DNA from: an uncultured Alphaproteobacteria bacterium
Lineage (GTDB): Bacteria; Pseudomonadota; Alphaproteobacteria; CAAHEQ01; UBA3637
Assembly: GCA_944392785.1 (NCBI GenBank)
Contig: CALXXW010000025.1
Location: forward strand, 107,264 to 146,308
Length of the DNA: 39,045 bases
Direction of reading: 5' to 3'
Positions 2,575 to 39,045 of this stretch are shown piece after piece. Under the pieces are notes generated by a model. It had not been told where the DNA came from. It worked only from the letters and a program-made list of their open reading frames with translations, and searched no databases. The first letter of the stretch is position 1. Every line of letters starts with the position of its first letter. Both the position numbers and the translations under genes were made by a program.

Positions 2575-3912
2575 ATGGCTTCATTATCAGATAGAATGGT
2601 ATCTCAGATGGACTTTTCTGCTTTTTCAAAAGCAAAAGACCTTCACAAGCGACTGTTGTTTACTCTCTTTGCGCTGATTATTTTTCGGTTGGGGACATAT
2701 GTCCCCTTTCCGGGTATTAATCCGACGGTTTTGGCAGACTTTTTTGCCCAAAATAATAACGGATTACTCGGGATGTTTAACGCCTTTACGGGGGGCGCTC
2801 TTTCCCGTATGTCAATTTTTGCATTAAATATCATGCCCTATATTTCTGCCTCGATTATTGTGCAGTTGGGCGCCAGCGTTTTGCCCTCTCTGGCTGCTTT
2901 GAAAAAAGAAGGAGAGTCAGGGTATCGCAAGATGAATCAGTATACACGTTATTTGACGGTTTTAATTACGGTTGTGCAAGCCTTTTTTATGGCTCGCGCT
3001 TTGGAAAGCGGTGGTGCCGTTATTATGTCTTCACACACTATGTTTGAATTATCGACGGTGGTATCATTGCTTGGGGGGACTATGTTCGTTGTTTGGCTGG
3101 GGGAGCAAATTACGGCTCGCGGTATTGGCAATGGAACCTCGCTGATTATCATGGTCGGGATTGTGGCGGGCATGCCTTCGGCTTTGTTGCGTATTTTTGA
3201 AGAAAGTCGGACAGGTGTTTTATCTTTTGGAATGTTGCTATTTTTGTTGGCAATGGTCGTCGCGATTGTTTATATTGTCGTTTTGTTTGAGCGTGCTCAA
3301 CGTCGTATTACCATTCAGTATCCCAAACGTCAGATGGGGGCTCGTGCCATGCAAGGCGTCAACTCATACTTGCCGTTGAAAATTAACCCCACTGGTGTGA
3401 TGCCGCCGATTTTTGCCAGTGCTTTGTTGGCTATTCCGGTGGCAATCGTCCAGTTTTCCTCTCAGAATAGTGATTCGGATTGGATCAATAAAGCAGCTTT
3501 GTTATTAACACCGGGGCAATGGGTTTATATGGCCGTTTTTGCGTTGTTAATTATTTTCTTTACATTTTTCTATGCCGGATTGCAGCCGCAGTCTAATCCC
3601 AAGGAAATAGCCGATAATTTGAAAAAACAAGGTGGTTTCGTTGCCGGTATTCGTCCCGGAGAAAATACAGCTAAGTACTTGGATTTTGTGATTACCCGCT
3701 TGACAGTTTTAGGGGCGATTTATTTGACGGTCTTATGTATTTTGCCCGAATTCCTGATTGCCACTTTGCAGGTTCCGTTCTTTTTGGGGGGGACAACCCT
3801 GTTGATTGTTGTGTCCGTTATTATGGAAACCGTCAGTCAAATACAATCACATATGATTGCACATCAATATGAATCCTTGATTAAAAAAGCCAAATTAAAG
3901 GGGAGATTATAA
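2575..3912 (+). CDS. secY: Preprotein translocase subunit SecY
   Basis: 445 residues with about ten membrane segments; the central channel subunit of the Sec translocon in the inner membrane. Family marks are FRLGTYVPFPGINP near residue 40, GIGNGTSLIIMVGI near 185 and GFVAGIRPGENTAKYLD near 360. AAGGGAGAG precedes the ATG. The stop overlaps the adk start (TAATG), indicating translational coupling. The secY-adk pair is a conserved arrangement. Confidence 0.97.
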   Translation: MASLSDRMVSQMDFSAFSKAKDLHKRLLFTLFALIIFRLGTYVPFPGINPTVLADFFAQNNNGLLGMFNAFTGGALSRMSIFALNIMPYISASIIVQLGASVLPSLAALKKEGESGYRKMNQYTRYLTVLITVVQAFFMARALESGGAVIMSSHTMFELSTVVSLLGGTMFVVWLGEQITARGIGNGTSLIIMVGIVAGMPSALLRIFEESRTGVLSFGMLLFLLAMVVAIVYIVVLFERAQRRITIQYPKRQMGARAMQGVNSYLPLKINPTGVMPPIFASALLAIPVAIVQFSSQNSDSDWINKAALLLTPGQWVYMAVFALLIIFFTFFYAGLQPQSNPKEIADNLKKQGGFVAGIRPGENTAKYLDFVITRLTVLGAIYLTVLCILPEFLIATLQVPFFLGGTTLLIVVSVIMETVSQIQSHMIAHQYESLIKKAKLKGRL

Positions 3913-7445: not shown

Positions 7446-8627
7446 ATGAAAAAAGTGTATCAGTTTTGGTTTTGGTTGAGCGTATCGGTCGGAGTGTTTT
7501 ATGTATCGAGTCATTTGATAAAGCATTTTTTTTATCATCCGATGGTTTCGGTTGTTATGCCGACGTATAACCGAGCCAATGCCTCGTTAAGTTATGCGAT
7601 TGACTCGATTCTCAATCAAACGTTTGATAATTTTGAACTGATTATTATTGACGATGGTTCCACGGATAAGACGCCGGAGCTTGTCAAGCGGTATCAGAAA
7701 AAAGACAAACGTATTGTCCTGTTAAGAAATGAAAAGAATCAAGGTATCATAGACAGTTTAAATCGAGGACTTGATGTTGCCAAAGGTAAATATATTGCCC
7801 GGATGGATGATGATGATGTCTCATTGCCGGAGCGTTTGGAGCGTCAGGTCGCCGTTATGGAGGCTCATCCGGAAATTACGGTTCTGGGTACCAGTATCAC
7901 GGGCCGAGATTCCTTGGTTAGGCTGCCCCCTAAAGAGGCGACCCCCCGTCTGATAGATCCGGAGGAAGTAGAAATCAATACGTATTTTTCTTCAGGATTG
8001 GCTCATCCTAGCATTATGATACGCAAAAGTTTTCTGGATGAATTCAATCTTCGTTATGATAAGGCATATCTGTATGCAGAAGATTGTGGTTTGTATAAAG
8101 ATATTCTGAATCATGGCGGACGTCTGAGCACGTTGCAAGAACCATTACTTCGATTTGGTTTTATTCAAAAGTTGAATAAGCCGGATAAATATGCATCAAC
8201 ACAGTATGAAACATTTAAGAAAATTCAGCGTGAGAAAATCCAGCCTCTTTTAACCCCTGATGAATCTTTATTGGGCCACTCACAGAGCACCCTCAAGAAG
8301 TGTACCTTGATGAAGCAGTTGGCGACAGCGAATCGAGACAAGCATATTTTATCTCAGGAAAAGCTGGAAGAAATGATTGCGAAACAATGTCCGCAAGACA
8401 TGGAAAGTGCTATTTGGGTTAAACATCCTTACTGGAGCGATTTTGTGGAGATAATCGGTGAGAAACGCTTACGCCGTGCGCAGGATGAAGCTTCCCTTAT
8501 CGGACAGAAAGGAAAGGAAATAACGGTGAAGTGGGATAAATGGGATACGGAGATTTATCGAAAAATAGATGATAAAACTTGGGAATATGTCCGAGATCAG
8601 GATGGGCATGTTAAAACAAAGAAATAA
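7446..8627 (+). CDS. Family 2 glycosyltransferase with C-terminal KWD module
   Basis: 393 residues. A hydrophobic segment (about 8-25) precedes a GT-A domain: SVVMPTYNRAN at 35-45, IIIDDGSTD at 66-74 and an acidic DDDD metal site at 121-124, then LAHPSIMIR and a later AEDCGLYKD acidic pair. It should move a sugar from a nucleotide donor; the acceptor is unknown. After residue 320 there is a separate module, HxxW at 327-330 and KWDKW at 362-366, which recurs in the proteins at 12438 and 32627. The N-terminal anchor leaves topology unclear, since the GT domain should face the cytoplasm. It stands alone between two terminators with its own promoter and GGGAG site. Confidence 0.85.
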   Translation: MKKVYQFWFWLSVSVGVFYVSSHLIKHFFYHPMVSVVMPTYNRANASLSYAIDSILNQTFDNFELIIIDDGSTDKTPELVKRYQKKDKRIVLLRNEKNQGIIDSLNRGLDVAKGKYIARMDDDDVSLPERLERQVAVMEAHPEITVLGTSITGRDSLVRLPPKEATPRLIDPEEVEINTYFSSGLAHPSIMIRKSFLDEFNLRYDKAYLYAEDCGLYKDILNHGGRLSTLQEPLLRFGFIQKLNKPDKYASTQYETFKKIQREKIQPLLTPDESLLGHSQSTLKKCTLMKQLATANRDKHILSQEKLEEMIAKQCPQDMESAIWVKHPYWSDFVEIIGEKRLRRAQDEASLIGQKGKEITVKWDKWDTEIYRKIDDKTWEYVRDQDGHVKTKK

Positions 8628-35635: not shown

Positions 35636-36631
35636 CTATTGAAGCGGAATCAGGCCGCACAGCGTTCGTTGACCCAAGTCTAACAGGGACACATTCGGCA
35701 ATAGTTTGGCACGACAAGCCACGTGCACCTCGGCATCTTCCGGGAAATAGCGCACCTCTATATCGTCAATATCCGTTGGATCCTCCATGGGGGAGGGTTT
35801 ATGAGCGCTTATCCACTCTGTTTCCCAGCTGCAGCCTTTCCAGAAAATTTTATAAGAGACCTCATAATCTAAGCATGAAGGAGTGGGTATTCCCTCTTTG
35901 GAGTGTTGATTTTTGCCATGGCAAACCAGACCGTAAAGGAGCATTTGCGGACGGGCAAGCTCTTCTTGACGAGCAAAGATTTTTTGCCAATCCGTATCGC
36001 AGACACAGGTGCCGTCTTGACACGTATTGGGGATAGCACAACAAACGTCGCCGCATCTTTCCTCGCCATTATTGCATAGGCACTTTCCATCGACACACGT
36101 CGTGTCAAAAGGACACAGCACGTTATCACAAGGATGTGTAATCAATTCAGATCCTTCCAGTGGTAAAAGGTGCTTTAAGTTATTGACAAAAACGAAAGTC
36201 ATTTGCGTGCGGGAGGTGCAATACCCTCCGCTACCGGCCTCTGCGCCGTTTAAGACGATTTCTTGGGGCCAGTCCCAAGGGGTCGTCAAAATATGTTCAC
36301 AAATGGTTTGAGGGATATTATGGACCGTAATGGTAAAACGGTCATTTTCACCGCGATAGGAGTTATTTGTTGTCACTAAATACTCTGCCCGAATCATGTC
36401 TTCCTGTTGTTTTAAATAGAACTCAGACAAGTCAATATCACGTCCGGCCATACGTTGAGGACTGGCGACCACGGCGCGTTTTTTGATGTTCTGAATAACA
36501 TCCTCTGCCACGGTTTGGTTGAGGTAATCAAAATAGCGAACCCCGCCCCAAATACTGGTTAGAGCAACGCATGCTATTAAGGCCAATGTTTTGAGCATTG
36601 ATGCTCCTCTTTCTGATGAAAAAATGACCAT
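35636..36631 (-). CDS. Pilin-like Cys-rich surface protein
   Basis: 331 residues. The N-terminus ERGASMLKTLALIACVALTS is like a type IV prepilin leader (Gly 9 then a hydrophobic helix), but the residue at +5 is Lys 14 instead of Glu. A pilin-like module follows with FTITVHNIPQTICEHIL (Cys 111) and a second Cys at 138. Residues 168-211 hold eleven cysteines in an EGF-like pattern, including CLC, CC and CVC. The C-terminal third has further Cys. Function unknown; probably exported and disulfide-bonded. AAGGAGACAAA precedes the ATG. Confidence 0.7.
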   Translation of the reverse strand: MVIFSSERGASMLKTLALIACVALTSIWGGVRYFDYLNQTVAEDVIQNIKKRAVVASPQRMAGRDIDLSEFYLKQQEDMIRAEYLVTTNNSYRGENDRFTITVHNIPQTICEHILTTPWDWPQEIVLNGAEAGSGGYCTSRTQMTFVFVNNLKHLLPLEGSELITHPCDNVLCPFDTTCVDGKCLCNNGEERCGDVCCAIPNTCQDGTCVCDTDWQKIFARQEELARPQMLLYGLVCHGKNQHSKEGIPTPSCLDYEVSYKIFWKGCSWETEWISAHKPSPMEDPTDIDDIEVRYFPEDAEVHVACRAKLLPNVSLLDLGQRTLCGLIPLQ

Positions 36632-36815: not shown

Positions 36816-38198
36816 CTAAGGGTGAATTTCCTCTAAAATAAAAGGATAAGCTTTTGTTTTTTTAGCATATTTCCAGAACAAATCATGATATGAAGAAGGG
36901 CTGTTATGAATATCGTGATGACGCCAAGGTTTATCATTGTTGGTATAGTGGAGTAATTTGGGGGGTAAAAGGTGTGGTTGTCCTAAAAGGATGAAAATTT
37001 CGGCATTCCACTCTTCGGAAATATAATGACAGTCATTTGAAAACATAAAGTTTAAAATATCTTGATCAAGATATCGAAAATGTCGCTGATGGGCCAGCTG
37101 AAAAGCTTTTTGTTGAAAATGATTTTGGCGAAGTTTGTCCAGATTCATAAGCAAAACGCCGGCATTAAAGTAAAGAGAGGGATTTTTCATATTCAGAGTT
37201 GTGCGACAGTAGTCTTTCCAATTTTGAGACGTATTTCCGGCATATAGAGGCTGAGGAATGACTCCCAGAGATTTATCTTTTAAGTCTATGTCAAAAAGAA
37301 AGGCCACATCGTCCAGCAAGATTTGATCTGCCTCTAAGTAGAGGGCTTTTTTATATTTTTTCAGAATTTCTGGGATTAAGAAACGATAATACGTGGCTGT
37401 ATTGATGTGTCCGAGGGTGGGTAAATTTTGAATCTTTTCGGTTAAGACAGAGTCGGCGATATCAAGCAGATGGATTTTTATGTTTTTTGTTTCTGACTGT
37501 TGTAGGAGGGATTTGTTTTGTTGAGACAGGTTGTTTCCTAATATAAAAATTTGATAGAGTCGATCGGGATTACTGTGCTCCTCAATGGACCGGATTGTCA
37601 CGGGAAGGAACAGAGCATAATTATCATCCACGGCAAAAGCTATGACCACATCATCCGGTTTTTGATAGGAGGGGTAAGCTTGGCACTGTCCCTGATCAGA
37701 GCAGATACCTTCAAAAGGCGGTTCATTCGGAACATCACAATCCGATACGGTTTGACAAACGGCGGGGGGACCAAAACCATTCCAATCTATGATAATATCG
37801 TTTGTTTCAAGACATGAAGTCATCTCGGTATTATCCAAGTTGTAAAAGTTCAAGACATTTTCAACCCGCATGTTTAACATTTGGTTGCAAACGCGTTGGT
37901 CTATATTGTCGACTTTTACAAAATCTCGCCCCAAAGAGTCACGACGAACGGTCATCGTTTTTTGGGAAACCGGCTGGAATGAAATTGAGGTCCAGTCTAG
38001 GGAAGGTTTTGTTGAGGGGGTTTTCATGTCCATAAAAGCCATTTTTGAATCGTGAATAATGGTATTAGCCATATTTTTATCAATGGCAACGAAGATACCG
38101 ATGATTCCGGCAATGCTTAGCAATCCAACCAAGGCCAGAACGCCCAAAATCTCAACCATACTCCGTTGGGATTCCATACTGATTCGTTTTTTACGCAT
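36816..38198 (-). CDS. Pilin-type N-terminus fused to a family 8 glycosyltransferase
   Basis: 460 residues. QRSMVEILGVLALVGLLSIA at 11-30 is a prepilin-type helix with Glu 16 at the +5 position, but Gln 11 replaces the usual Gly before the cleavage site. Residues 91-150 form a pilin-like module (DFVKVDNIDQRVCNQML, Cys 104 and 129), then a Cys-containing linker. From 182 to about 450 is a GT8 domain: VVIAFAVDDNYALFLPVTIR, LYLEADQILLDD (acidic metal site), FNAGVLLMNLDKLR, LDQDILNFMF and HYTNNDKPW. The anchor would place the transferase outside the cytoplasm, where nucleotide sugars are not expected. Weak GGAAAG site before the ATG. Confidence 0.8.
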   Translation of the reverse strand: MRKKRISMESQRSMVEILGVLALVGLLSIAGIIGIFVAIDKNMANTIIHDSKMAFMDMKTPSTKPSLDWTSISFQPVSQKTMTVRRDSLGRDFVKVDNIDQRVCNQMLNMRVENVLNFYNLDNTEMTSCLETNDIIIDWNGFGPPAVCQTVSDCDVPNEPPFEGICSDQGQCQAYPSYQKPDDVVIAFAVDDNYALFLPVTIRSIEEHSNPDRLYQIFILGNNLSQQNKSLLQQSETKNIKIHLLDIADSVLTEKIQNLPTLGHINTATYYRFLIPEILKKYKKALYLEADQILLDDVAFLFDIDLKDKSLGVIPQPLYAGNTSQNWKDYCRTTLNMKNPSLYFNAGVLLMNLDKLRQNHFQQKAFQLAHQRHFRYLDQDILNFMFSNDCHYISEEWNAEIFILLGQPHLLPPKLLHYTNNDKPWRHHDIHNSPSSYHDLFWKYAKKTKAYPFILEEIHP

Positions 38199-38230
38199 AA
38201 CAAAACACTTTCCGCTGATACTTTTTTCTC

Positions 38231-38259
38231 ATCATGTCTTAAACTGTTTTGAAAGTCAA
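38231..38259 (-). promoter_or_regulatory. Minus-strand promoter of the pilin-GT8 gene
   Basis: TTGACT (38259-38254), 17 bases, CATGAT (38236-38231) on the minus strand, about 33 bases before the start at 38198. Confidence 0.5.
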
Positions 38260-38520
38260 CAGATTTGTGATGCTTAGATTCATTTATTAAACAGAATTCA
38301 TTGCGGTTCCATTTTTAAGGAACGACCAGACCTTAACAATACGGTTTGTCAGAAAAGAGCAGACTATGAAAATTCTATTTAATAATAGTTAATTAAAAGA
38401 TATTAACTTTAATGTTAGCCAATTTGGAAACGGAATCCAAGCAACGGGTTGTTAAGGAAATAGATTATCAATAGATTCTTTTTTTATCAGAGGGGTGGTG
38501 TTTTACTGGGTATTCCAAAC
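38260..38520. other. Spacer with no gene seen
   Basis: No supported coding frame or RNA gene. A small hairpin TTAAGG/CCTTAA lies at 38315-38336. The stretch is very AT-rich and is bounded on the right by a terminator. Confidence 0.6.
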
Positions 38521-38524
38521 AAAA

Positions 38525-38555
38525 AAAACCACTCTCAACAAGTGGTTTTAATTTT
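38525..38555. terminator. Bidirectional terminator-like hairpin
   Basis: AAAACCACT (38525-38533) pairs with AGTGGTTTT (38541-38549) across a 7-base loop. A runs on the left and T runs on the right would let it work on either strand; the minus-strand tail (eight T) is the stronger. No complete gene that it clearly serves is seen next to it. Confidence 0.75.
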
Positions 38556-38587
38556 TGGTACAGCGTGCTTAGCGAATACCGAGCTAA

Positions 38588-38740
38588 GAATTTAGAAGAT
38601 TTCAAAAAGTTGGTATTACAGGTGGAACTGTTGAAATTTTAATTCAGGACGCCAACATCCAAATTAAGTTTTCTCCGCAAGAAATGATGAAAATATATTG
38701 CTTTTATCGTTTGTTTATATATAATAAGAGATTGAATTAG
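38588..38740 (+). pseudogene. Possible coding remnant without start codon
   Basis: An open frame from 38588 to a TAG at 38738 reads protein-like (GGTVEILIQDANIQIKFSPQ in its middle) but begins right after a stop and lacks an early start codon. Just upstream, in another frame, a helical-looking stretch (LSEYRAKNLEDFKKLVLQVE) ends at 38641; a frameshift would join the two. The layout suggests a decayed small gene, but chance is possible; the next gene's promoter lies inside it. Confidence 0.3.
38698..38725 (+). promoter_or_regulatory. Promoter for the gene at 38784
   Basis: TTGCTT at 38698-38703 and consensus TATAAT at 38720-38725 with 16 bases between. It leaves a leader of about 50 bases before the ATG. 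Confidence 0.75.
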
Positions 38741-38783: not shown

Positions 38784-39045
38784 ATGGGCGTATTTAGTTA
38801 TGTTCGTTCTCAGCTTGATCGTCGCCAAATGAATCGGGAATTCAAGGAAAGTTTTGGAAAATTAAAAGAAGGATATGAGGCATTAGATAAGAACCAGCTA
38901 AAGGCGGCTTTGCGGGATATGTATGATGCATTGTTTTGCGTTGGAACCTATGCTAAAAAAAACGGAGAATTAGTCCAAGATTTAACGGTTCCTTCATTAC
39001 CGAGTGACGGTTATTATGTAGATCGTTTTGAAAACCAAATGAATG
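38784..39045 (+). CDS. Unrecognised protein, 3' end outside the window
   Basis: 87 complete codons are visible and the frame is still open at the right edge. It starts MGVFSYVRSQLDRRQMNREF and continues with charged helices (FGKLKEGYEALDKNQLKAAL) and VQDLTVPSLPSDGYYVDRFE. No signal peptide or membrane segment; no family recognised. A full TAGGAGGT ribosome binding site at 38770-38777 and a good promoter indicate a real, probably well-expressed gene. Confidence 0.8.
   Translation, partial: MGVFSYVRSQLDRRQMNREFKESFGKLKEGYEALDKNQLKAALRDMYDALFCVGTYAKKNGELVQDLTVPSLPSDGYYVDRFENQMN

Follow-up and report, generated by a model that had tools for sequence, protein, structure and literature searches.

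A pilin module joined in frame to a GT8 glycosyltransferase domain in a gut-type alphaproteobacterium: a probable lineage-specific fusion with a recently acquired pilin half

The window analysed here (the whole stretch of DNA, 39,045 nucleotides) carries on its minus strand, at 36816-38198, an unbroken open reading frame of 460 residues that joins a prepilin-type N-terminus, a pilin module, a Cys-rich linker and a GT8 glycosyltransferase domain. This gene is known from one MAG of a gut-type alphaproteobacterium. It is probably a real, lineage-specific fusion, in which a transferred pilin half would have replaced the anchor of a GT8 enzyme and the GT8 domain would be held outside the inner membrane. 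The frame starts with ATG and contains no internal stop and no frameshift. Both domains thus lie in one open frame, as the initial annotation had proposed, and the frameshift that it had named as an alternative source of the pairing can be dismissed. Eight cysteines are found in the protein, at positions 104, 129, 148, 154, 166, 172, 331, and 390. When pilin and GT8 relatives were aligned together, the GT8 N-termini fell wrongly onto the pilin region; the two halves were therefore modelled separately with AlphaFold.

The N-terminus is composed of a leader (MRKKRISMESQ) and the α1 helix (residues 1-58; 38025-38198, minus strand). It harbors the prepilin-type motif QRSMVE at residues 11-16, with Glu16 at +5, and a hydrophobic core of 19 residues (21-39) within a 44-residue helix (15-58), which bears out the prepilin-type helix described initially. 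Gln11 stands at -1, as also pointed out at that stage, where a class III signal peptide has Gly. In the alignment, this residue is Gly in the ortholog from genome G016 and Asp in the homologs from G003 and G004. The pilin head with the α1 helix spans about residues 12-143 (37770-38165, minus strand) and contains the two cysteines expected of the pilin-like module, Cys104 and Cys129. The model of the pilin half (residues 1-183, mean pLDDT 82.1) displays an N-terminal helix and a β-sheet head. In a VIA-align comparison of this model, the 12 best rows are all pilins or pseudopilins (Z from 7.8 to 4.9), with type IVb pilins of enterotoxigenic E. coli and Vibrio cholerae at the top, followed by unrelated kinases at 3.7. 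Plain Foldseek on the same model returned chance matches only, none of them significant, and no Pfam pilin model matches the protein, the only matching models being those of GT8-type glycosyltransferases. The Z values would be weak if taken alone, but no other fold interrupts the pilins at the top of the ranking and the N-terminus is of prepilin type, so that a type IVb pilin fold is credible for the modelled half. Residues 91-150, to which a pilin fold had first been assigned, are indeed predicted as pilin-like, but this range covers only the second half of the head.

The linker (residues 144-180; 37659-37769, minus strand) bears Cys148, Cys154, Cys166, and Cys172, in agreement with the Cys-bearing linker of the first description. 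At position 175 the fusion has Tyr, and the aligned relatives have Cys (17 of 17). The GT8 domain, with its GT-A fold, occupies residues 183-460 (36819-37652, minus strand). Pfam Glyco_transf_8 matches residues 186-427 with 137.9 bits (cut-off 24.3), the AlphaFold model has a mean pLDDT of 92.8, and Foldseek relates it to WbbM (E 2e-22) and LgtC (E 2e-20). The domain is full, as had been claimed, with NAGVLLMNL (345-353), LDQD (377-380), and HYTNNDKPW (417-425) all in place. At the DXD position, E289-A-D291 (37326-37334, minus strand), the second Asp is invariant in the alignment and the first is replaced by a Glu shared only with the enzyme of genome G021 (locus L042), the closest homolog. 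The Cys331/Cys390 pair is likewise common only to this homolog. Apart from this Glu, the residues of the LgtC-type site are kept (D191, N193, R272, N345, D378, Q379, H417, and K423), which in LgtC are donor- and acceptor-site positions. Binding of a nucleotide sugar and of a glycan acceptor at this site still looks feasible.

Both parents of the fusion can be identified. The pilin half shares 84% identity with a G016 protein over residues 1-195 (84-89% protein identity range), the C-terminal part of which is a Cys-rich repeat tail. At the DNA level, a block at 37657-38599 (37657-38487 and 38522-38599) is 88% identical to the G016 locus L041, and takes in the pilin half and ~0.4 kb upstream, non-coding DNA included. 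Between the same two genomes, priA and xerC are only ~65% identical and their synonymous sites are saturated, whereas the pilin half shows a dS of 0.37 and a dN/dS of 0.16. This difference indicates that the pilin-half block passed recently between genera by horizontal transfer. Ahead of the pilin gene, the two genomes conserve the stretch at 38522-38599, corresponding to 7975-8052 of L041, which contains a terminator-like hairpin; a short frame within it, LARYS.STLYQKL, could be what is left of the end of a protein. No tRNA that could have served as insertion site occurs within the window, and an Rfam search gave no match above the gathering scores.

The nearest GT8 (62% identity) is a standalone enzyme with an N-terminal membrane segment, encoded in G021 (JAFTSJ010000034.1), a roe-deer cecum MAG. 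The divergence of the GT8 half from this enzyme resembles that of housekeeping genes. The GC content of the GT8 part of the fusion is 0.378, which is 0.055 under that of the window, and the G021 copy, at 0.278, is 0.058 under that of its 20-kb locus L042 (GC 0.336). Owing to these similar offsets, the GT8 domain looks adapted to its host genome. In the simplest history, a GT8 gene already resident in the genome would have had its N-terminal anchor exchanged for an incoming pilin cassette. The donated part would comprise the first 180 codons, along with the promoter region, of a modular type IVb pilin linked to a diversity-generating retroelement (DGR).

The two homologies meet at 37650-37657 (minus strand): according to blastn and the alignments, the G016 pilin homology stops at 37657 and the G021 GT8 homology starts at 37650. 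The second thus begins at most 7 bp from the end of the first, in frame, at the domain border, and with nothing left over. Such a junction argues against an assembly artefact, in which the contig-terminal 1.4 kb would come from a co-sampled G016 relative and have been joined to a GT8 gene. This explanation is quite unlikely, even though the DNA identity of the pilin block is congener-like, the contig ends only ~0.85 kb from the fusion gene, and the fusion was found in no other searched genome. A 30-mer across the junction occurs once in the whole genome. A search of this 98%-complete genome turned up no further pilin tail, and nothing closely matching the reverse transcriptase (RT) of the cassette. 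The homology to G016 stops at 38599, ahead of the contig end. Furthermore, in the absence of the pilin tail, a Cys at 175 would be the one linker Cys lacking a partner; in the fusion it is already a Tyr, which leaves an even number of cysteines (eight) and makes a misjoin less likely. The in-frame junction, Tyr175 and the unique 30-mer therefore point against the assembly join that the initial annotation had considered. The terminal ORF (38784-39044), examined as a marker of contig origin, has no homolog among 40 family genomes.

In relatives, G016 included, the same pilin module possesses a Cys-rich tail, and both this tail and the accompanying cassette are absent from the fusion. At L041 (8434-12454; G016) and L043 (7643-11740; G013), the pilin homolog is followed by an Avd-like gene, an RT, and a small secreted lectin-like protein. 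The Avd-like gene scores 44.5 bits with NCBIfam DivGenRetAVD, under the cut-off of 80. The template/variable repeat (TR/VR) mismatches of these two loci fall at template adenines in 7 of 7 and 8 of 8 cases, respectively, and a similar repeat pair at L080 also has all of its mismatches (8/8) at such positions. RT and Avd flank the pilin at L066 and L067 too, and a lectin-like homolog adjoins such a pilin in about a dozen more loci. RT, Avd and TR/VR, present at L041 and L043, were not found in the window. The DGR-linked pilins suggest a hypermutable pilus-tip ligand, and their cassettes may be more interesting than the fusion. A second, separate DGR is observed on a small contig (L056, G000:C15:1-5779), with an RT at 2735-3790, a TR near 2367, and a target ORF from 3835 in which all 18 mismatches coincide with adenines of the template.

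No second pilin-GT8 fusion was found among 43 family genomes and 385 class genomes, nor in wider collections of genome contigs and viral contigs. The pairing, seen in no other genome searched, is hence not a conserved domain combination. The literature search gave nothing direct, whether on fusions of a pilin with a glycosyltransferase or on DGR-borne pilins. The next gene (35636-36631, minus strand) encodes a second pilin-like Cys-rich protein, having a prepilin-like N-terminus with Gly at -1 and Lys at +5; tblastn relates it to the G000 pilins of L003, L004, L006, and L007. The C-termini of the L003 (C10) and L004 (C2) pilins resemble a lectin-type DGR target (WWSANNFCEAL) and differ from each other.

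The occurrence in one genome, the Gln at -1, the loss of the DGR partners, and the Lys at +5 of the adjoining pilin-like protein would all be consistent with a recent accident devoid of selected function, expressed or not and heading for decay, and the GT8 fusion may be too young for any selected role. This is nevertheless unlikely, given an intact frame of 460 codons, a GT8 active site with nearly all of its residues, and the removal of the unpaired Cys. The low dN/dS also argues against it, although this value may mostly predate the fusion.

The genome possesses a type IVb assembly cluster (PilN-type secretin, TcpQ, PilO, ATPase, and T2SSF) and, away from it, a Peptidase_A24. Prepilins insert with their N-terminus inside and their C-terminus outside. 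The leader of the fusion contains 5 K/R (net charge +3), as against 2 K/R (net 0) after the helix. Because of this positively charged leader, the GT8 domain and the pilin module should face outside and, given the type IVb machinery, the GT8 domain should be directed towards the periplasm or the surface. The reversed topology, proposed initially, with a cytoplasmic GT8 domain and the pilin helix as a mere anchor, is highly improbable: it is disfavoured by the charge of the leader, by the N-in/C-out insertion of prepilins, by the many Cys of homologous modules, and by a Cys-rich linker of the disulphide type, shared with homologs that are exported. In its favor, several standalone GT8 relatives and a GT2 of the window (7446-8627) have N-terminal anchors whose flanking charges are ambiguous as to the membrane side. 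Glycosyltransferases (GT2, GT8) with a single N-terminal anchor recur in the family, and comprise, besides this GT2, those at L046:6641-7681, L042:9620-10582, L021, L032, and L038.

In the preferred reading of an exported fusion, the pilin part would lodge the protein in the inner membrane, its N-terminus on the inner side and all that follows ~residue 40 on the outer one. Folding of the pilin head, and of the linker with its two disulphides, would take place in the periplasm, and the GT8 domain would be held on the outer side of the inner membrane. A Gln at -1 is expected to prevent or slow leader cleavage by the prepilin peptidase. Since the Gly at this position is replaced by Gln, processing and pilus assembly of the fusion are doubtful, and the protein is not classed as a functioning pilin; for the same reason, an uncleaved, inner-membrane-anchored GT8 facing the periplasm would be its likeliest state. 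Processing has to come before assembly (reviewed in PMC10191384). If processed instead, the protein would be a minor pilin showing the GT8 domain on a type IVb pilus, where its relatives show a lectin-like partner.

The GT8 domain so exposed may transfer sugars or bind glycans; glycosylation of pilins or of surface polymers, suggested initially, would be a possible role. Beyond the inner membrane, nucleotide sugars would not be expected, and catalysis by the fusion is doubtful because no donor is known there. An active nucleotide-sugar GT8 outside the inner membrane or on a pilus, using periplasmic or gut-lumen donors and grafted on a horizontally mobile DGR-linked pilin, is unlikely. The same lack of expected donors would suit a GT8 domain serving as a lectin-like carbohydrate-binding display module rather than as an enzyme, a tentative possibility that refines the exported fusion and does not exclude it. 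Lectin-like partners are found beside the same pilin module in the relatives, and the modular pilins described in the available text of PMC8179133 are mostly ligand-binding, carbohydrates included. Conversely, donor-site and catalytic residues are retained, and the Glu of the DXD position is also present in the standalone parent, and so does not reflect decay after export.

In its anatomy, the fusion fits the design of modular type IV pilins, such as PilB and PilC of Streptococcus sanguinis (Raynaud et al. 2021, PMC8179133), in which an N-terminal pilin module is followed by a short linker and a module that is not specific to pili. According to the available text of that study, 264 such architectures were counted, mostly ligand-binding, with some predicted peptidases. 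Modular pilins are known to add functions to pili, but mainly binding modules have been described, and GT8 is absent from the functions named in that text. The fusion further differs by the Gln at -1, and its display on a pilus is a prediction. A glycosyltransferase as pilin module would test Leloir-type sugar transfer beyond the inner membrane.

The class of its pilin fold and the type IVb machinery of its genome bring the fusion close to CofB/CofJ and TcpA-class type IVb pili. CofB is described as the adapter of CofJ, which is secreted (PMC8179133, available text), and the pilin and small secreted lectin-like protein of the relatives resemble this pair; in the fusion, by contrast, the GT8 domain stands in for both the tail and the secreted partner. 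Fold and catalytic residues are those of the GT8 galactosyltransferases LgtC and WbbM, from which the fusion departs by E-A-D in place of D-x-D, by its Cys331/Cys390 pair, and by a context predicted as exported. As in DGR cassettes, the parent pilin (L041, L043) is accompanied by Avd, RT, TR/VR, and a lectin-like target; the window, however, keeps none of these, the cassette having supplied the pilin half only. The fusion captures a module swap shortly after the event, with both parents identified. It also directs attention to the type IVb pilins of these reduced gut bacteria, a family that travels with hypermutation cassettes.
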